NCBI GenBank assembly: GCA_025060325.1
Contig: JANXBW010000003.1
Location: forward strand, 171,231 to 235,230
From: Thermoguttaceae bacterium
GTDB taxonomy: Bacteria > Planctomycetota > Planctomycetia > Pirellulales > Thermoguttaceae
Length of the DNA: 64,000 nucleotides
Direction of reading: 5' to 3'
The notes beneath the pieces were generated by a model that did not search any database, was not told where the DNA came from, and worked only from the letters and a program-made list of their open reading frames with translations. Of this stretch, positions 7,447-20,410 are shown piece after piece; position 1 is the first letter of the stretch; the number at the start of each line of letters is the position of its first letter. The position numbers and the translations under genes are program-made.

Positions 7447-7930
7447 ACGCGCTGTTTGGGCGCTTGCGCGTTTCGAGAGGGGGGTTGTTCCGCGGTTTGT
7501 GGGTGCTGCGCCGGTTCCGGGACAACCCGGGTGAGTCTGTGCCGTTTATGCCAATGATCACAGCGATTCGGTTTTTGGGCTGCCCGTCGGTGTGCCGAAT
7601 TGGGTAAAGTACAGGGCTCAGGAACAACTTCGCAAGTCCGCCAGCGGATGTCGCTCACTTGGTCTGAGTCGGAGCAGGTCAGCTTAGTGGCTAGGATTGG
7701 ACCGGAACTTGACGGCTGGTTAAAGTTTGCCAAAAACCTTTGCGGTCGGATTCATCGGGTTGCGCTTGCGAGAATCTAGGTAGACTTTGCGTCCTAGGGC
7801 GCTTTTAAAGGGGCGGGAGGGGGCTGGTCCTTATAGCGACAGTGTGCGGTCGCCGCGCTTCTTGGGAGGCGTTTACGAGGAGAGCATTCCTGGGAGCTTC
7901 CTGCCAGTGTTACCGTATCGGTTGCCTGGG

Positions 7931-10900
7931 ATGTTTTTTATCCCCCCGGATTTGGTGGAGCTTCTCCGCCACCGGGCAACTTATCAGCCGGATGAAATTG
8001 CATTCACTTTTCTGGTCGACGGAGAGGATCAGCAAGTCCATATCACCAACCAGGAGCTGGACAGGCAAGCACGAGCTATCGGTGGGTGGCTTCAATCACT
8101 AGGTTTGGAAGGTGAGCGCGCCCTGCTTCTTTATCCGCCTGGTCTGGAGTTCATCGCTGCTTTCTTTGGCTGCCTTTACGCGGGGGTGGTAGCCGTACCG
8201 GTTTATCCGCCGCGAAAGAACCGCTCGCTTCAGCGAATTCAAGCCATTGCTGAGGACGCCCAGGCGAAGGTCGCTTTGACAACCGATGCCGTCATTCGTC
8301 GGGTGGAGCCCCTGATTGACGAGACGCCTCATTTGAAGGAACTTCGCTGGCTTGCCACCTGCCATGTTCCTCGGCACATGGAGGACCGTTGGCAAAAACC
8401 CCCGATTACCCGCGAGACGTTGGCTTTTCTTCAATACACCTCCGGATCAACCGGGGCACCGAAGGGGGTAATGCTCAATCATGGGAATTTGCTTCATAAC
8501 TCCGCTCTGATCGCCTACGTGTTCGAGCACACCCGGTCAGGCCTCGGGGTGTTTTGGCTTCCCAGCTATCATGACATGGGGCTTATCGGCGGAATTCTTC
8601 AGCCCCTTTTCGTCGGCCGGCCCAACATCTTGATGTCGCCGATGGCTTTTTTGCAAAAGCCCTTGCGGTGGTTATGGGCGATCTCCCGATTTCGGGCCAC
8701 CACAAGTGGCGGCCCAAATTTTGCCTACGAGCTTTGTGTGGACAAAATTCCGCCGGCCCAGCGGGCGCAGCTGGACTTGTCTAGCTGGCAGGTGGCTTTT
8801 AACGGCGCGGAGCCGGTCCGAGCCGAGACGATCGAGCGATTTACCGAGGCCTTCGAACCATACGGATTTCGCCGGGAGGCCTTTTTCCCGTGTTACGGGT
8901 TAGCCGAGGCAACGCTTATTGTGACAGGGGGTTACGCCAAGGAGCCGCCGGTGATTCGCTGGTTCGAAGCCGAGGCGCTCGAACATGGCCGAGTGATACC
9001 GGCTGCCCCGCATTCACCGGGTGCCCGGCCGTTGGTGGGCTGTGGACAAAGCCTCCCTGACCAGCGGGTGCTTATTGTCGATCCCCATACGTGCCGGCGC
9101 CTTCCCGAGGGTTTCGTTGGGGAAATTTGGGTTCAAGGTCCCAGTGTGGCCATGGGCTATTGGAATCGCCCGGAGGCGTCGGCGGCCACCTTCGGCGGTT
9201 ATTTGGAAGGAACCGGCGAAGGGCCATTCCTGCGGACCGGCGACCTGGGGTTCTTATGGGGAGGTGAACTTTTTGTTACCGGGCGGATTAAGGATGTCAT
9301 CATCCTCCGAGGGAGGAACATTTATCCTCAAGACATTGAATTGACGGTCCAGCATGCCCACCCATGGCTTCGGCCAGACGCGGGGGCTGCCTTCACGGTG
9401 GAGCAAAATGGGCGGGAGCGCTTGGTCGTGGTCCACGAGGTGGAGCGCCGGGTGCGGGGGCACCTGGAACCGGTTGTCCAAGCCATCCGCCGGGCTGTGG
9501 CCGAGGAACACGACCTGGCTGTTGACGCAATTGTCCTGATCAAAGCTGGCACGATTCCCAAGACTTCAAGCAACAAAATCCAGCGGCATGCCTGCCGCCA
9601 AGGCTATTTGGAGAAAACCCTCGCCGCCTTGGCATGGTGGGAGCGCTCGGACGTGGAACTGCCAGTGCTTGGGGACGAGGTCCGCGAGCCGGAATTGGCC
9701 GAGGTGGCTGCCGGTGCCGTAGCCGCTTCTTCGATCGGGCCTTCTACGCCTGGAGGTCCCTGGCACGGCTTTTCCGACGAAGCGTCAGCACTGGAGCCAA
9801 CCGGGACCAAGGAGGTCTTTCGAACTCGGGAGTCTACCGAGCGATCGGACGGCGACCTGCGGGGACCATCGTCGCGGGGCGGGGATGGGTCTACGAGCAG
9901 CAAGGGACTTGCGGAAGGACTTTCAACCAGGAAACAAGGGAGTCGTGCCGAGGGGGCTCAGGCTGGCGGCCATACTCCCGAAGAGCGCTCAGACGGGCAG
10001 GCCAGGACCGGGATGGGCTCCCCGGAATTGAAAACAAATTGGACGGGCAACGGTAGACCTTTGGAAGACCTTGTCCTTGAGTATGCCCGGAGGGTTGTCC
10101 GGCACCGGGCGGATGAAATCACTTTGGAGACCTCGATAAGCGAATTGGGGCTGGACTCGCTTCAGAGGATGGAGCTGATCTCGGCTCTCGAAGGGGAGCT
10201 GGGCGGGAAGTTGGCCCCGGAGAGGCTGGCCGAGCTGGAAACTTTCGGGGATGTAGTGCAGGCGTTGCGGGAACAGGTGGGCGATAGGTGGCGGGTGGCA
10301 AAGTCTCCCTTGCCCCCGGCCACTGTACAAATGTCAGCCGAATTAGTTCCCGAATATGATCGCCTCCGCGACCGGCTAAAAGTTATCCGCTCGGCCGGCC
10401 TTGAGCACTGGCAAATGCCGGTGGTGGACGGCGGAGTGGGTCGGGTGACTTGGCAGGGAAAGCCCGCGACCAGTTTCTTGAGTGCAGATTACCTGGGTCT
10501 GTCCCAGCACCCGCTTGTGCAGGAGGCAATTGCTCAGGCTGCTAACCGCTGGGGCAGCTCTGCGGGGGCCGGATTGCGTTCCGGTGGCCGGCGGCCGATC
10601 CATAGCGAACTTGAATCCGCTCTTGTCAGATTCTTAGGTGCGGAAGCTGCGCTTTGTACGGCAAGCGAGGTTGTCGTCCATCAGGCGATTTTTTCGGAGA
10701 TTCTCTCCCGGCAAGATTGGGTTCTTCACGAGGCGAGCTATCCCCGCTCATTTTTGATCCCCGCCCTTGCAGCCGGGGCCACGCTGGAAGAGTTCTCGGC
10801 GGCCGATCTTCAAGAATTGGAAAGGCGGCTAGCCCTGGAGCGAGGTAAGTACCGGCGGGCTTTTTTGTGCGTCCAGGCGGTTTCTCCGATTGAGGGAACA

Positions 10901-11554
10901 GTGGCCCCGTTGCGCGAATTGGTGGAACTGAGAAACCGGTTCGGTCTTATTCTTGTGGTAGAAGAAACTCATAGCCTTGGTGTACTGGGGCCAAAGGGGG
11001 CGGGCATCGTCGACCAATTCGAGGTTGACCGCCAAAGTGTGGATATCTCTATCGGTGGGCTTGGAGCTGCCCTCGGAGCTGCCGGTGGGTTTGTAGCGGG
11101 TCGACAAGCGTTGGTGGATTTAGCTCGGTACTCGGCCGCCGTAATCGCCCAGGAATTTGCCTTATCTCCTGTAAATGCCGCGGCAGCTCGAGCCGCTCTT
11201 GGGGTTTTAGAAAGCGAGCCCCAGCGTGTCGCTGCTCTTGCCAACCGATCGCGAGTCTTTCGGCAGGCCCTTGCCGAAAGAGGTTGCCAGGTCCTGGGAG
11301 ACTCAGGCGTTCCGATTGTTCCCCTTGCCGTGGGGAGTTCCGTCCGGGCAATCCAACTTGTCCAAAAGCTGGCCGATCGGCAGGTGCTGGCATTGGCGAT
11401 TGGTGCCCCGATGGTCAAAGAGGGTCATGCCCGGATCCGCTTCCTTTGCACCTTAGCCCACGAAGAAGCTGATCTCCTTCGCATCGCTGAAGTGGTTGAA
11501 GAAGTCATGAACGCCGCCCCGGCTCCCTTTGCCCGGGGAAAGTCCGGGGATTAG
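7931..11554 (+). CDS. fatty acyl-AMP ligase - acyl carrier protein - alpha-oxoamine synthase-like fusion; PLP lysine replaced
   Basis: A 1207-residue fusion. Residues about 1-575 are a fatty acyl-AMP ligase: the P-loop YTSGSTGAPKGVMLNHGN, the FAAL-type segment WLPSYHDMGLIGG and SGGPNFAYELC, and a final Lys in KTSSNKIQR. Residues about 580-705 are a low-complexity Ser/Gly/Glu linker. About 710-780 is an acyl carrier domain with GLDSL (Ser743, phosphopantetheine site). About 800-1195 is a fold-type I domain like 8-amino-7-oxononanoate synthase or serine palmitoyltransferase (SADYLGLSQHPLVQEA, HSELE, ETHSLGVLGPKGAG). The expected PLP lysine (GTLGKALG) reads GGLGAALG, with Ala1046. The ligase should load an acyl chain onto the ACP; without Lys the last domain is probably non-catalytic or needs a partner, as LCB1 does in eukaryotic serine palmitoyltransferase (inference). 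The start could instead be GTG 7907, which has a better GGAG site. Confidence 0.85.
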   Translation: MFFIPPDLVELLRHRATYQPDEIAFTFLVDGEDQQVHITNQELDRQARAIGGWLQSLGLEGERALLLYPPGLEFIAAFFGCLYAGVVAVPVYPPRKNRSLQRIQAIAEDAQAKVALTTDAVIRRVEPLIDETPHLKELRWLATCHVPRHMEDRWQKPPITRETLAFLQYTSGSTGAPKGVMLNHGNLLHNSALIAYVFEHTRSGLGVFWLPSYHDMGLIGGILQPLFVGRPNILMSPMAFLQKPLRWLWAISRFRATTSGGPNFAYELCVDKIPPAQRAQLDLSSWQVAFNGAEPVRAETIERFTEAFEPYGFRREAFFPCYGLAEATLIVTGGYAKEPPVIRWFEAEALEHGRVIPAAPHSPGARPLVGCGQSLPDQRVLIVDPHTCRRLPEGFVGEIWVQGPSVAMGYWNRPEASAATFGGYLEGTGEGPFLRTGDLGFLWGGELFVTGRIKDVIILRGRNIYPQDIELTVQHAHPWLRPDAGAAFTVEQNGRERLVVVHEVERRVRGHLEPVVQAIRRAVAEEHDLAVDAIVLIKAGTIPKTSSNKIQRHACRQGYLEKTLAALAWWERSDVELPVLGDEVREPELAEVAAGAVAASSIGPSTPGGPWHGFSDEASALEPTGTKEVFRTRESTERSDGDLRGPSSRGGDGSTSSKGLAEGLSTRKQGSRAEGAQAGGHTPEERSDGQARTGMGSPELKTNWTGNGRPLEDLVLEYARRVVRHRADEITLETSISELGLDSLQRMELISALEGELGGKLAPERLAELETFGDVVQALREQVGDRWRVAKSPLPPATVQMSAELVPEYDRLRDRLKVIRSAGLEHWQMPVVDGGVGRVTWQGKPATSFLSADYLGLSQHPLVQEAIAQAANRWGSSAGAGLRSGGRRPIHSELESALVRFLGAEAALCTASEVVVHQAIFSEILSRQDWVLHEASYPRSFLIPALAAGATLEEFSAADLQELERRLALERGKYRRAFLCVQAVSPIEGTVAPLRELVELRNRFGLILVVEETHSLGVLGPKGAGIVDQFEVDRQSVDISIGGLGAALGAAGGFVAGRQALVDLARYSAAVIAQEFALSPVNAAAARAALGVLESEPQRVAALANRSRVFRQALAERGCQVLGDSGVPIVPLAVGSSVRAIQLVQKLADRQVLALAIGAPMVKEGHARIRFLCTLAHEEADLLRIAEVVEEVMNAAPAPFARGKSGD

Positions 11555-12077: not shown

Positions 12078-13085
12078 TCATTTGTCCCCGGCAGCTGGTC
12101 GCCAAAACCGCCCCTGGAAACTGTCCCGACGGATTAGCTCTTTATCGATCTCACGAATCACCTCCGACTTTTGGAGCGACCAAGCCGGGGCAAGGAGGAA
12201 CTCCGCCGGGGCATCCCCGACAAGCCGTTCCACCACACTCCCAGGGGAAAGATGCTCAAGGAAGGTGGCCACGCTGTGGACGTATTGGGTGCGATCCATG
12301 GGCTGAAACTGCCCCTGTCGCCACAAGCTTTCTAAGTCAGTGTCCTTGAGGACATGCAGATTGTGGATTTTGACCGCGTCAACGCCTAGCTCATTTAGCT
12401 TATCCGCCGTGTGAACGATCGCCTCCAACTCCTCCCCGGGAATTCCTAAGATGACGTGGGCCACTACGAATAGTCCGCGGGCCTTGGCCCTCCTGATGGC
12501 CTGAGCATTATCCGCGGCCGTATGATGACGTCTCAGCCAGCCCAGAGAGCTGTCGTGGAACGTCTGCACGCCAATTTCCAGCTGGACCCAAGTGATTTGG
12601 GCTAAATCCACTAGGGCGTCGAGGACCGCCTCTGGCAAAGCGTCCGGTCGGGTACCGATGGCAACTCCCACCACACGTGGATGGGAAGCCGCAGCACGCC
12701 AAAGGTCGACCAGTCGACCCAGCTCCCCGTGCGTATTTGTGCCCGGTTGGAAATAGGCAATAAACTGATCAATCCTGCGCTTGGCTGCAACGCGGGCGAT
12801 TCCCTGTTCGATTTGCTCGTGTACGGATAAGGCGCCAAGTCCCAATCGTCTGCTCGGCGCGGTCGCCACAAGATCGCAAAAGATGCACCCCTTGTCGCTG
12901 ATTGTTCCGTCAACATTAGGACAACTGCAGCCGGCATCCAAGGAAAGCTTCCACACCCGCCCGCCGAATTTTTGCCGCAAGAAGAAGCTAAGAGCGTAGT
13001 ACCTCAGCCCAGCCAGCCGCCAAGCTGGAAGGTCCTCGCTAGCACTGATCCGCGGGCTCTCCAAAGGTCCAAAACTTGACGACAT
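12078..13085 (-). CDS. TIGR01212-type (YhcC-like) radical SAM protein
   Basis: A 335-residue radical SAM enzyme. The cluster-binding cysteines are in CPNVDGTISDKGCIFC (Cys55, Cys67 and Cys70), the spacing typical of the YhcC family rather than the classical CxxxCxxC. Further family marks are YFQPGTNTHGEL, GVAIGTRPDALP, WVQLEIGVQTFHD and HVILGIPGE. Members use a 4Fe-4S cluster to cleave S-adenosylmethionine; the substrate is not established, so only the family is assigned. Length fits. It starts at an ATG with a weak site. It lies on the opposite strand to its neighbours and appears monocistronic. Confidence 0.92.
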   Translation of the reverse strand: MSSSFGPLESPRISASEDLPAWRLAGLRYYALSFFLRQKFGGRVWKLSLDAGCSCPNVDGTISDKGCIFCDLVATAPSRRLGLGALSVHEQIEQGIARVAAKRRIDQFIAYFQPGTNTHGELGRLVDLWRAAASHPRVVGVAIGTRPDALPEAVLDALVDLAQITWVQLEIGVQTFHDSSLGWLRRHHTAADNAQAIRRAKARGLFVVAHVILGIPGEELEAIVHTADKLNELGVDAVKIHNLHVLKDTDLESLWRQGQFQPMDRTQYVHSVATFLEHLSPGSVVERLVGDAPAEFLLAPAWSLQKSEVIREIDKELIRRDSFQGRFWRPAAGDK

Positions 13086-13400
13086 CGATTTATCTCAGCT
13101 AGACTGGCATTCAGTGGGGGCCGCGGGATTTTCAAAGAAGATGACCGCGCGTGGATTGTTTCATTCGCAGATGCCGAAATCGCCCAGGTCCGTGCTTGGG
13201 GAACCGTTTCGGGCCGCTGGCCTTAAGGCAGCACTTAAAACGTATTCATCCTTTGAATAGTACGGCCCTCGGTTGACCGGGGTGAAATCATAAGCAACGT
13301 GTTGACTATGGGACCAGGGGCTGTGGGCCTAGGTAGTCGGGAAAGTGAAACGCCATCTCCCGGACCTTGTCAAACCCGAATCGCTTATGGGGAGTCGGCA
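13086..13400. other. spacer between divergent genes
   Basis: A 315-bp spacer between the minus-strand radical SAM gene and the plus-strand FHA gene, so it should hold both promoters. TTGACC and TTGACT hexamers occur, but none pairs with a convincing -10 at 16 to 18 bases. Confidence 0.4.
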
Positions 13401-13910
13401 ATGTACGGACAGCTTAACCCGGTAGGCGGGGGGGATCCTATCCCCTTGCTGAAGACGACACTTCTTATCGGGCGGCGCGAGACCTGTGATGTGGTGCTGC
13501 GATTTCCAAATGTTTCGGCACACCATTGCGAGCTTTTCCTTAAAGATGGTTATTGGTATGTGCGCGACCTGGATAGCCGGAATGGAACCCGGGTCAACGG
13601 CACGCGCGTGACCCAAAAGCGTTTGGACCCAGGCGACATTTTGGCGGTCGCCAGCCACAAGTATCGGATCGACTACTCGCCTCAGGAATTGGGTGCCGTT
13701 TCACCACCTCCCCCGGATCCAGTCGAGGCGGATATCCTCGGCAAATCGCTCTTAGAGCGGGCCGGCCTTGACCGAGGATTGGAGGATCGAGTCCGGTGCA
13801 CCCGCCCGCGAAAATTTGGTCCACTGCCCTCAGGCCAGGAGGATGAAGAAGGATCGCAAGAGTCGCGCTCGATCCTGCCTGAAGACGACGAAGACGTTCA
13901 AATCGGTTAG
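13401..13910 (+). CDS. FHA domain protein
   Basis: A 169-residue cytoplasmic protein. Residues about 15-95 form a forkhead-associated domain, a phosphothreonine-binding module: LLIGRRETCD (Gly24-Arg25), NVSAHHCEL (Ser39 and the following His) and DSRNGTRVNG (Asn61-Gly62) are the usual binding and structural residues. The last 75 residues are acidic and disordered (EDEEGSQ, PEDDEDVQ). The domain fits signalling with Ser/Thr kinases, which are abundant in planctomycetes; the partner is unknown. ATG 13401 is preceded by GGGGAG; an in-frame upstream extension of 34 codons lacks domain content and was dropped. Confidence 0.88.
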   Translation: MYGQLNPVGGGDPIPLLKTTLLIGRRETCDVVLRFPNVSAHHCELFLKDGYWYVRDLDSRNGTRVNGTRVTQKRLDPGDILAVASHKYRIDYSPQELGAVSPPPPDPVEADILGKSLLERAGLDRGLEDRVRCTRPRKFGPLPSGQEDEEGSQESRSILPEDDEDVQIG

Positions 13911-16450: not shown

Positions 16451-19400
16451 TCAATTAAGCTGAGGCTCAACCGGGCCATGAGCAGGCTTCCCTTCCTGGG
16501 CCGGTGGCTCCAGCGATGGTTGCTGCTCCGATTGAGACTTCGCGGCCGGGGTTGGCGGCGGAGCAAGGTGCGGAGTGGGCTGCGGCAGGCAGCGGGCTTC
16601 TGCTGGGATCCGCCGCGGTGTCAGTGTGGGAAAGATCACAGGCGTTTCCGTTAAATGCCCGGCCAGTCCATCCTCTGCGGGAAGTCCCACTTCCCCATGG
16701 ATTTGCAGCACGTCGGAAAGAACAAAATGAATTCGCGCTGCTTCTTCCTGTTTAATCCGCTCGGCCTCAGCGGGATTGCGCACCACCCGGGGAGTGAGGA
16801 TGATCAGTAGCTCGGATCGCCGTTCGCGGGCATTGTCCATCCGAAACAGTCGCCCCACCAGGGGAATGTCTGCAAGATAAGGAATCCGTCGCGAGCCAGC
16901 GGTATTGTACTTAGTGATTAGGCCGCCGATGACTATCGTTTCCCCGTCAGCAGCACTGACTGTCGTCTGGGCCGTGGTAACGTTGACAGATGGAGAGCGG
17001 ATCACCTCACCACCACTAATTGAGACGGGAATTCCTTCCGATTCCGGCCCCAATTCCGATTTTTCTGCATCGACCTGCATCACCACCATTCCATCCGGGC
17101 TGATTCGCGGCGTGACTGAGAGAATTAAACCGACCGGTTCGAGTTCCACAGCATTAAACTGCGTGCCGGCGTAGAACCGGGTTCCTACGATCCGGGGTAC
17201 GCGTTTACCAACCTGGATAAAAGCTGGCTGGTTATCAAGCGTCATAATTTGCGGGCGGGATAGCACCCGCAGTTGCCGACGATCCTGCAAAGCTCGGAGC
17301 AAAATGCTGAGGTTCTCGCTGCTTGCCGAGAAGACAAATCCCCCATACCCCAACTCGCTGTTGCTGCGCCCAAGAGAAAAATGCGTCAGTCCCTGTGTAC
17401 CAATTTTTTCGGACGTTGAGAGCGACAAGGCACTCCCGGCGTTGCCCAGGGGTTGATTGTTGAAGTTAAAACCCGGGTTAAGTGTCGTAGAGATCACGCT
17501 TCGGTCAAAAAGCACCGAGTCCTGCAGCCCGAACTCGGCCCCGAATTCATCAACACTTGCTAGTTCCACCTCCACAATGAGTGCCTGAATGAGGACCTGC
17601 GGAGGAAGTTCGTCTAGCTTCTCCACAAGCTCCATTATGTCGGGAAAAAAGCGAGGTGTAGCGCTAATGATCAGGGCGTTGCTCACCGGCTCGGGGACCA
17701 CTACTACCTCCGATTCGATTTGCAGGAAAGGGCTAAGGACACCCGGGGCTGCCAATTGGAGTTGCCGCTCCGTGCGGAGAAAATCGTTGATTGATCGGGC
17801 CACATCGGCAGCCGGCGCATTCTTTAGCCGATAGACCGTGTTAATCCGTTGACGAACTTCCTCTTCGTCCAGCCGCAAGAGAAGGGCCTCCACAATAGCT
17901 AAATCGCCACGCGAACCGGTGGCAATGATGCTATTAGTTCGCACGTCCACAGAAAAGCGAAGGGGCACAAGGGTGGTTTCCCCCTCCGCTCCCGCAAGCT
18001 GTGCCCCAGTGGGTTGCGGGGGAAACAGCGTCCGCAGCAAGTTAGCCAGCGCGGTAGCATCAGCGTTGAAGACTCGAAACACCTTGATTTGGGCGACCGC
18101 ACTGGGCGTATCCAGCTGCTCGATTAGGGCAGCGATAAGCTCCATGCTTTCGGCGGGCGCCGTAATGACCAGGGTATTGGTTTGCGAATTAGGCACAATC
18201 TGCACGTCAGTAAGAAGCCCGGAGCGGACCACCTCTTGCTTTTCCCGATCAATGCCGACAAGTTCGAGGATCGCAGACTTCCGCTGGAGTCCGCCCACCG
18301 CGGCCGAGATCGCCGACTGGAGAGTGTTGGCAATGTCACTTGCCAGGGTAAATCGAAGTTTGAAAATCCGCGTCTGCAAGACGGCCTGGCTTTCCCCCTC
18401 CAGTTGGTTGACAAGAAGTTCCACCTCCCGCATGTCACTGGGCGAAGCGCGGACGATGAGCGAGTTAGTGGCCGTGTCGGCAATCACCTGAACATCGGGC
18501 GACAAACCACCCCTGTTGACAAAAGCGCTGGCAATTGTTGTGCGAGCCACATTCGCGTTGGCACGCTTAAGCGGAAAAATTTTCAGCTCCGCGTGTGGAC
18601 TAACTGGCTGGTCGAGCTTCTCGATAAGCCTCTTGGTTGCTTCAAGGGCCTCGCCCCAACCGATAAGGAGTAACGCATTCGGCTTGACAAGTGGCGTAAT
18701 GCTTACTCGGCCCTGGCGATTGCCTAAAAGCTCCGCCTGCACTTGGGAGATAAGCCGGCTCAAGGACAAACAGTTGACATGGCGGAGCCTGTAAATTTCG
18801 ATCTGCGGCTCGGCTAAAGCGCTTAGGCGTTCAAGTTCGGCGATGATTCGGCTTAATTCTTCCACATCGCGTTGCCGGCCCCGAAGGATCAGGACATCCA
18901 AGTCAGGTAAGCTTTCGACCTCCACATCGCCTCGCACAGCCGGTATCAGTTGGCCCTCTTCCCGGGTCGGCTGCCCGGGGGCAGTGACCGGCTGCGGGCT
19001 AGGTGCCGGGGGGCCAACTTGCTCTTGGTAGGAGGTGGGGACAACGCCGCCCTCTAAATCTTGATGGCCTTGCCGTGAAGCCTCCTCCAGTGCAAGCAGG
19101 CTTGCACCGGCTGGTCCCAAAAGCGGGGCTACCTGATCCACTAAACCCAGTCGGCCCTGAGACGGGCCGGCCATTCCCGCACTGTTATCTCCTGGCGAAG
19201 TTGCCCCGGCCGGAACGGTGGTTTTCCCCTCCGAAGCCTGCCCGGCGCGAAAGGCATCGAGGGCCTCTTTAAGCTTAAGCGGGTCGATTCGCCCAACCGG
19301 AAGCACACGGACGACCGTCTGACCATCCATCGGCCGATCTAGGGCCCGCACAAGGCTCGCCAATTGACGGGCCAAGTTCCGCGGCCCTTGTATCCACACG

Positions 19401-20410
19401 CCCTTGTTCGCGTGGTCAAAGCCTAGTTCCGCTCGCCGGCCGCGGGCATCCTCAAAACAAAGTTCCGCTCGCCCCGGGTGCGGAGTTGCTACCTGCCCCA
19501 GCCGCGCCCCAAGCAAGAGCCCAAGTTGTTCGCGGATTTGGTTTACTGGAAGGTGCGAGACCTCGACGAAAAGGCTTTCTGATTCTTCTGCCGGGGGGAA
19601 TGCGGGCCTAAGTCCCGCTGAGCGCGGCCGAGGAATGACGGCAGTGACATACTCATCCGGCAGCTGAGATGGCCCTGGGGAATCCGCGGGTACCCTAGCG
19701 TCGGGCATGCCGGAACCCGCCGCCACGCCCATTCCCGCGCCCGTAGAGGGGGGCGGTTGAGGGAAGCCGGTATGACCGGGCATGCCTGAACCAGGTTCGG
19801 GCCAAATTCTTTGATCCGACGAGCGCCCCGAAGACTCAGGCACTACCCCCAGTAGACTTACAAGTTTACTAATCTCAGGTATACGGCTGGCCGGGGCTAC
19901 CACGAAAATCCGCCCGGTGGTTGGATCTCCAGCGATGCGAATCCCTTGCTCCTGGGCAAATGCTTGTCGAACCTGATCAACTACGGCTGGAACCTTGTCG
20001 GGCGGGCAGATATAGGCTTGAACCTCGGCTTTACTGGCAAGTGGCGCTGCCCTGGGTTGGTCGAGCCGACTTATGAGCTCGGCAATTACCGGAATCAACT
20101 CCTCCGGCGCGGCGACGAGGAACTGATTGCCTTCGTGATCGACGACAAGTTGGGCACCACCAAAGCCCGATATGATCTCCCGCAGCGGGCCCGCAAGTTC
20201 AGTGGCCTCTCGATGGCGCAGCGGGAAGCTGTGGAATTGCTGCCGTCCGGAAGGCAAATTGCCTAAGGTAGGAGATGGTTGGGCGAGGACTGCCGAGCCT
20301 GGCTCCGGGCTAGCCAGAAGCAATGGGCCTAGGAGAAGCGCCGTCCCGACTAAATTGACTCGGCAAGGACGTGGGTGAGGAAGCTTTCCAAATTTTCCCG
20401 AAGCGATCAT
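16451..20410 (-). CDS. large secretin-like protein (type II secretion GspD-related)
   Basis: A 1319-residue exported protein, about twice the length of a normal GspD. A signal peptide is at about residues 18-45 (GTALLLGPLLLASPEPGSAVLAQ). Numerous N-domain-like repeats follow (for example FPLKRANANVARTTIASAF and VQVIADTATNSLIVRASP; similar units recur four or more times through about residue 900). The C-terminal secretin domain, about 950-1240, has QVLIQALIVEVELASVDEFG, VPRIVGTRFY and the final ELLIILTPRVVRNP motif. Secretins form an outer-membrane ring for type II or type IV systems; no ATPase or pseudopilin gene is nearby, so the system is not identified. GGAAGGA precedes the ATG. Confidence 0.88.
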   Translation of the reverse strand: MIASGKFGKLPHPRPCRVNLVGTALLLGPLLLASPEPGSAVLAQPSPTLGNLPSGRQQFHSFPLRHREATELAGPLREIISGFGGAQLVVDHEGNQFLVAAPEELIPVIAELISRLDQPRAAPLASKAEVQAYICPPDKVPAVVDQVRQAFAQEQGIRIAGDPTTGRIFVVAPASRIPEISKLVSLLGVVPESSGRSSDQRIWPEPGSGMPGHTGFPQPPPSTGAGMGVAAGSGMPDARVPADSPGPSQLPDEYVTAVIPRPRSAGLRPAFPPAEESESLFVEVSHLPVNQIREQLGLLLGARLGQVATPHPGRAELCFEDARGRRAELGFDHANKGVWIQGPRNLARQLASLVRALDRPMDGQTVVRVLPVGRIDPLKLKEALDAFRAGQASEGKTTVPAGATSPGDNSAGMAGPSQGRLGLVDQVAPLLGPAGASLLALEEASRQGHQDLEGGVVPTSYQEQVGPPAPSPQPVTAPGQPTREEGQLIPAVRGDVEVESLPDLDVLILRGRQRDVEELSRIIAELERLSALAEPQIEIYRLRHVNCLSLSRLISQVQAELLGNRQGRVSITPLVKPNALLLIGWGEALEATKRLIEKLDQPVSPHAELKIFPLKRANANVARTTIASAFVNRGGLSPDVQVIADTATNSLIVRASPSDMREVELLVNQLEGESQAVLQTRIFKLRFTLASDIANTLQSAISAAVGGLQRKSAILELVGIDREKQEVVRSGLLTDVQIVPNSQTNTLVITAPAESMELIAALIEQLDTPSAVAQIKVFRVFNADATALANLLRTLFPPQPTGAQLAGAEGETTLVPLRFSVDVRTNSIIATGSRGDLAIVEALLLRLDEEEVRQRINTVYRLKNAPAADVARSINDFLRTERQLQLAAPGVLSPFLQIESEVVVVPEPVSNALIISATPRFFPDIMELVEKLDELPPQVLIQALIVEVELASVDEFGAEFGLQDSVLFDRSVISTTLNPGFNFNNQPLGNAGSALSLSTSEKIGTQGLTHFSLGRSNSELGYGGFVFSASSENLSILLRALQDRRQLRVLSRPQIMTLDNQPAFIQVGKRVPRIVGTRFYAGTQFNAVELEPVGLILSVTPRISPDGMVVMQVDAEKSELGPESEGIPVSISGGEVIRSPSVNVTTAQTTVSAADGETIVIGGLITKYNTAGSRRIPYLADIPLVGRLFRMDNARERRSELLIILTPRVVRNPAEAERIKQEEAARIHFVLSDVLQIHGEVGLPAEDGLAGHLTETPVIFPTLTPRRIPAEARCLPQPTPHLAPPPTPAAKSQSEQQPSLEPPAQEGKPAHGPVEPQLN

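Follow-up and report, generated by a model that had tools for sequence, protein, structure and literature searches.

The serine palmitoyltransferase (SPT) of eukaryotes consists of a catalytic subunit and a non-catalytic one, and the origin of this division is hard to study in these organisms. Among bacterial systems, Planctomycetes have fusions of an adenylating, a carrier and an oxoamine synthase domain (A-CP-PLP2 (AOS)), e.g., A3ZWL3 of Blastopirellula marina (PMC3870968), and the Rhodobacterial AasR-AcpR-SPT system likewise brings together an acyl-ACP synthetase, a dedicated acyl carrier protein (ACP) and an oxoamine synthase (PMC9386255). In SulA, the acyl donor is acyl-ACP, with acyl-CoA used poorly, and Lys281 stands where SPT has Ala (PMC9304779). 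We analyzed a 64,000-nucleotide stretch of DNA (positions 171,231 to 235,230 of contig JANXBW010000003.1, assembly GCA_025060325.1), hereafter the window, from a Thermoguttaceae bacterium, a planctomycete related to heat-loving Thermogutta. An earlier note on the window had described a fusion of a fatty acyl-AMP ligase (FAAL), an ACP and an oxoamine synthase, in which Ala1046 occupies the place of the Schiff-base lysine for pyridoxal phosphate (PLP). The window protein has the same domain order as the planctomycete fusions, and it is real and well supported that a lysine-less pseudoenzyme domain sits inside this already known kind of fusion.

A synthase domain without the PLP lysine

Pfam domain order and alignment bore out the described architecture and the alanine (Table 1). 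The frame falls within the ~1,100-1,300 aa of planctomycete FAAL-ACP-oxoamine synthase fusions and matched AMP-binding (residues 13-411, 231.6 bits), the AMP-binding C-terminal domain (455-566), PP-binding (714-779) and Aminotran_1_2 (851-1181). For the first domain, the best NCBIfam models were mostly FAALs, every one under its curated cut-off, and the FAAL motifs YTSGSTG, YGLAEAT, GRIKDVIILRG and Lys549 of PKTSSNKIQR, which we take to be catalytic, were present. Translation may begin at a GTG at 7907, because the database proteins P0003 and P0004 open with MLPYRLPG, which the window encodes from that position. The last domain is a fold type I domain of the BioF/KBL/SPT family, and its fold was predicted with confidence (mean pLDDT, a per-residue model score, 91.9).

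When aligned with relatives, SIGGLGAALG of the window matches the GTLSK block, placing Ala1046 at the PLP lysine, and VEETHSLG matches VDEAHS, placing Glu1011 at an Asp that presumably binds the PLP pyridine nitrogen, as in E. coli BioF. Pro938, Pro986 and Gly1043 stand in place of the stacking His and the phosphate-site Ser/Thr, labels that we likewise assume from E. coli BioF. No substitute lysine was found near the PLP block in the alignment, and the lysine-bearing paralogs from the same genome align with the window domain at this block without gaps.

The window genome is a draft (4.78 Mb, 89 contigs, 95.6% complete), and draft assembly is what could make the missing lysine an artefact, or a shifted residue in an active enzyme. 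This explanation is hardly credible: the lysine is also missing from separate genomes and from database proteins, and the pocket has lost further residues. Seven members of the genus clade (the window protein, P0003, P0004, G052, P0006, P0007 and G028) share the loss, which rules out sequencing error or a shifted lysine; Ala, Thr or His replaces the lysine in all of them (Ala in P0003 and P0004, Thr in P0006 and P0007). One more database protein, P0005, is 99.8% identical to the G052 protein. The earlier note had raised both a true lysine elsewhere in the domain and an error in this copy; neither was found, as the block is without lysine, the nearest homologs share its absence and distant fusions mostly have Lys.

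The change extends to the rest of the pocket. Lysine-bearing fusions have 125 positions with conservation of 95% or more. On average, the seven members retain 48% of them, and 40 are gone in all seven, including the stacking His, the phosphate-site Ser, G913 and T1043. The lysine-less copies G001 and L094 retain 68% and 66%. The percentage alone proves nothing, since two lysine-bearing synthases of the window genome, the true BioF L002 and L003, also keep 54%. With the lysine and other pocket residues lost, PLP chemistry is not expected of the domain, in line with the non-catalytic role that the earlier note had proposed.

Other positions are newly constrained or kept. Twenty-four residues are newly fixed in the lysine-less clade (e.g., E913, Q1074, W827 and R1066), Tyr-Pro-Arg occupies 937-939, within the former pocket, in 6 of the 7 members, and His1014 and Ser1015 are retained, as is the ring-nitrogen Asp in P0006, P0007 and G028. 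E913 and Tyr-Pro-Arg as newly fixed former-pocket residues, together with the retained His1014 and Ser1015, could imply a new PLP-free function, such as binding of an acyl chain or a regulator. We consider such a function quite unlikely, however, as no catalytic set was recognized and the residue replacing the lysine varies. A separate case is P0050, which has Asn at the lysine, keeps 93% of the positions conserved in the lysine-bearing type and is changed at the stacking His and the DEAH motif.

Distribution and constraint of the lysine-less domain

In a family sample of 61 genomes, 29 loci were fetched besides that of the window, and Lys was present in 26 of them. The other three (L004 Ala, L005 His and L016 Tyr) belong to G052 and G028, both of the window's genus, and to G001, respectively. 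Thus, the lysine is missing in 3/3 genus genomes compared. Each of these three genomes has three oxoamine synthase matches, one being the fusion, and no lysine-bearing fusion was found elsewhere in them (92-98% complete, so that an assembly gap is possible).

Lysine-bearing fusions are far more common. Lys status was read in the matches fetched from searches of the family, the order and the class: among 47 further loci, 40 had Lys, and the remaining seven are again the copies found in the window, G052, G028, G001 and G119, a Pirellulaceae genome. Three protein searches gave 147 proteins (135 Lys, 5 Ala, 2 Tyr, 2 His, 2 Thr and 1 Asn), counts in which the window protein appears twice, the proteins of G001, G028 and G052 recur and other architectures are included, one search having listed 120 of 214 hits. 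A contig scan with patterns drawn from lysine-less sequences found Lys in 75 of the best 80 of 314 loci; the rest were G052, G028, G001, L094 (Thr) and L167, which has Gly at the PLP position in an alignment that appears shifted. At E 1e-60, 381 of the 396 genomes of the order sample had a match to oxoamine synthase, and the best matches listed lie mostly in frames >1,100 residues, indicating that many members of the order carry the fusion. With a profile built from the lysine-less copies themselves, only lysine-less copies exceeded 600 bits among the matches listed in the order- and class-wide searches, the next match scoring 512.

The trees leave it undecided whether all lysine-less copies would go back to a single origin: three changes of lysine state are required on the FAAL tree (without P0048) and two on the synthase tree, and well-supported branches force only one. 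L037 had dropped out at a motif filter. G001 carries one lysine-bearing and one lysine-less (Tyr) fusion, L053 and L054, an apparent duplication. In Pirellulaceae G119, and seemingly also in G293, the distant lysine-less fusion L094 (Thr) is accompanied by L178, a separate 507-residue ACP-synthase protein that does have the lysine. Frames of other lengths were also seen: a BioF-like synthase within a 642-residue frame (L058 of G046), possibly another fusion, and oxoamine synthase matches in frames of ~2,560-2,620 residues, longer than the usual fusion, in G135, G192, G204, G207 and others of family f16.

The loader and the synthase domain evolve very differently. Between the window protein and that of G052, identity is 92% in the FAAL and 59% in the synthase domain, which is intact; synonymous sites are saturated or nearly so, and the ratio of nonsynonymous to synonymous rates (dN/dS) gives bounds only. 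The ratio of synthase to FAAL path length was 8.4-20.8 in 8 lysine-less pairs vs 0.52-1.35 in 10 lysine-bearing pairs (hand-picked pairs, some sharing rows). Change 8-21 times that of the FAAL would suit a domain in decay, due to be lost, whose open frame is merely a matter of time. Decay is nevertheless very unlikely: the frame, the length and the identity to G052 persist although synonymous sites are at or near saturation, and seven sequences read through the domain at a kept length of 389-390 residues, behind a linker of 129-139 residues over the compared part. As judged from these comparisons, it is well supported that a loader whose motifs are intact is followed here by a pseudoenzyme domain that is being maintained.

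Alternatively, the FAAL-ACP half might be the only part of importance: the dead domain would be a remnant that serves the folding or dimerization of the protein, and acyl-ACP would go to an unrelated lipid enzyme. The very strong constraint on the FAAL and the much weaker constraint on the synthase domain would fit, as would the fact that constraint on the dead domain is spread over its length rather than focused. In addition, none of the 10 window proteins scanned around the fusion had a lipid-family match, and 4 of the 10 had no match at all. However, the domain is untruncated in seven relatives, with a length constant to within one residue, and 24 residues are newly fixed in the clade; on balance, we regard this alternative as somewhat unlikely.

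A SulA-like candidate partner

The explanation that we tentatively prefer is that the dead domain is a scaffold presenting FAAL-loaded acyl-ACP to a separate lysine-bearing condensing enzyme, with L003 as the best candidate. In this scheme, Ser743 of the ACP would receive a fatty acid from the FAAL, and the dead domain, presumably still folding and dimerizing, would hold the loaded carrier for the condensing enzyme, docking its partner as LCB1 does in eukaryotic SPT. With SulA-like L003 as the candidate partner, the product might be a sphingoid-like or capnine-like base. Among 20-residue blocks, only the helix at 807-826 after the ACP showed higher conservation in the lysine-less rows, by >0.02 (0.62-0.69 vs 0.51 in 27 lysine-bearing rows, without P0048, L043, L059 and P0097), which would fit this explanation.

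The window genome has two further oxoamine synthases, L002 and L003, both with the lysine. L002 is a standard BioF (443.8 bits vs a cut-off of 426.45), and L003 fell under the cut-off of every family matched. The best PDB matches of L003 were 28eh (302 bits, cysteate-C-fatty acyltransferase) and 7u7h (284 bits, Alistipes cysteate acyl-ACP transferase), followed by SPT. A Lys 30 residues after the PLP lysine, the equivalent of SulA Lys281, was present in 8/8 planctomycete L003 orthologs (rows P0007, L039, L040, L059, P0019 and P0048, in which a wrong motif had been caught, were not used), and in L003 it aligns with the lysine of 28eh and 7u7h. A separate lysine-bearing enzyme of lipid type in the same genome, for which the earlier note had suggested looking, is thus present, and L003 is a candidate for sulfonolipid synthesis outside Bacteroidota.

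Orthologs of L003 (E 1e-85) occurred in 8 of 119 family genomes, i.e., in all four with the lysine-less fusion and in 4 of the 115 others, a co-occurrence with a probability of 8.8e-6 that would be valid only if genomes were independent, which they are not. Shared ancestry explains part of it. In an RpoB tree, for which 28 of 30 genomes gave a sequence, the genus joins T. terrifontis and, with weaker support, G001; three sampled genomes of the same clade (G031, G054 and G096) are without a SulA-like gene. This would fit a SulA-like gene that was already present when the lysine was lost.

Several observations weigh against the scaffold explanation and its SulA-like partner. SulA-like genes follow ancestry, as T. 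terrifontis and G001 in the genus clade also have them, so that at most two Lys losses support the link to SulA. G024, which we take to be T. terrifontis R1, has a lysine-bearing fusion together with a SulA-like gene, and the dead domain is therefore unnecessary for having SulA. L003 and the fusion lie on different contigs, and none of nine neighbors of L003 in three genomes was a plain lipid-synthesis gene by Pfam, although G001 has one GNAT acetyltransferase match. The one cysteate synthase model tried, TIGR03844, gave no match over its cut-off in 8 genomes, and 1 of 14 controls exceeded it. The Pirellulaceae genome G119, whose fusion is lysine-less, yielded four oxoamine synthases, all without the SulA lysine, in a survey that did not include a search with L003 itself. 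Finally, the rapid change of the dead domain is also compatible with weak constraint.

The genes around the fusion were uninformative, and an operon logic for it was rejected. The radical SAM and FHA genes listed in Table 1 adjoin the fusion in 3/3 genus genomes, and the two clusters commonest near lysine-bearing fusions (8 loci each) were one of porin type and one of no clear family.

Table 1. Features of the fusion and its surroundings in the window, and the candidate partner gene
Feature	Position	Strand	Basis
FAAL-ACP-oxoamine synthase fusion, 1207 aa	7931..11554	+	open frame; Pfam, NCBIfam
Fatty acyl-AMP ligase domain, aa 1-570	7931..9640	+	Pfam, NCBIfam, motifs
Variable linker	9668..10069	+	alignment of lysine-less relatives
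Acyl carrier protein domain, aa 714-779	10070..10267	+	Pfam
Phosphopantetheine Ser743 in LGLDSLQ	codon 10157-10159	+	
Lysine-less oxoamine synthase domain, aa 807-1195	10349..11515	+	Pfam, alignment, predicted fold
Pro938, position of PLP-ring-stacking His	10742..10744	+	alignment; role assumed
Glu1011, position of PLP ring-nitrogen Asp	10961..10963	+	alignment; role assumed
Ala1046 (GCT), position of PLP Schiff-base lysine	11066..11068	+	alignment
MnmL/YtqA-type radical SAM gene (tRNA modification), beside fusion	12078-13085	-	
FHA gene, beside fusion	13299-13910	+	
Large secretin, six Secretin_N stretches	16451-20410	-	
L003, SulA-like oxoamine synthase with Lys281 signature	window genome contig 55, 1450-2667	-	

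Comparison with described systems

The window synthase domain scored 162 bits with the best bacterial oxoamine synthase, 109-127 with LCB2 chains (human LCB2 127) and 75-107 with LCB1 chains, scores by which homology to LCB1 is rejected. Because LCB1 scores lower than both bacterial synthases and human LCB2, any LCB1 likeness would be convergent. Of the interpretation offered in the earlier note, the non-catalytic domain, the intact FAAL and ACP motifs and the lysine-bearing L003 stand, and the specific kinship with LCB1 does not. An LCB1-like role of the dead domain is plausible. The bolder idea of a bacterial reinvention of the LCB1/LCB2 split, in which thermophilic planctomycetes would make capnine-type sulfonolipids with a SulA-like enzyme whose non-catalytic subunit is the dead synthase with its own loader and carrier, appears unlikely at present.

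In titles and abstract openings of the literature on FAAL/oxoamine synthase fusions, planctomycete SPT, planctomycete sulfonolipids, cysteate acyl-ACP transferase and pseudoenzymes/LCB1, with few subscription journals covered, we found no description of a lysine-less form of the fusion. In the table of the study that described the A-CP-PLP2 (AOS) fusions (PMC3870968), examples with a replaced lysine stand under Aminotran_3, whereas the window protein is of the oxoamine synthase type and has lost the lysine and pocket residues. A study of the Black Sea reported 138 Planctomycetota metagenome-assembled genomes with Spt-like proteins, some Spt homologs lying within longer proteins; FAAL fusions and loss of the lysine are not mentioned in the parts of that study covered here (PMC11334938).

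The Rhodobacterial trio consists of three separate proteins with an active SPT (PMC9386255), whereas the window protein joins the parts in a single chain and its synthase domain is dead; the lysine-bearing fusions usual in the order are best seen, by analogy, as a self-contained version of that trio. SulA (PMC9304779) is closest to L003 among solved structures, and L003 has the Lys281 equivalent; L003 differs in being planctomycetal and in that no cysteate synthase exceeded the cut-off of the model tried. With the SulA-like gene, the idea that planctomycetes synthesize sulfonolipids becomes testable.

A bacterial clade in which the fold has lost its lysine, whose sister fusions keep it and which has a relative in culture, T. 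terrifontis R1, would open the birth of a pseudoenzyme subunit of this kind to direct study. The PLP lysine is missing both in the window protein and in eukaryotic LCB1/SPTLC1 (PMC3794620), but the window protein differs by carrying a FAAL and an ACP, and the lysine-bearing candidates for the catalytic side are here L002 and L003.

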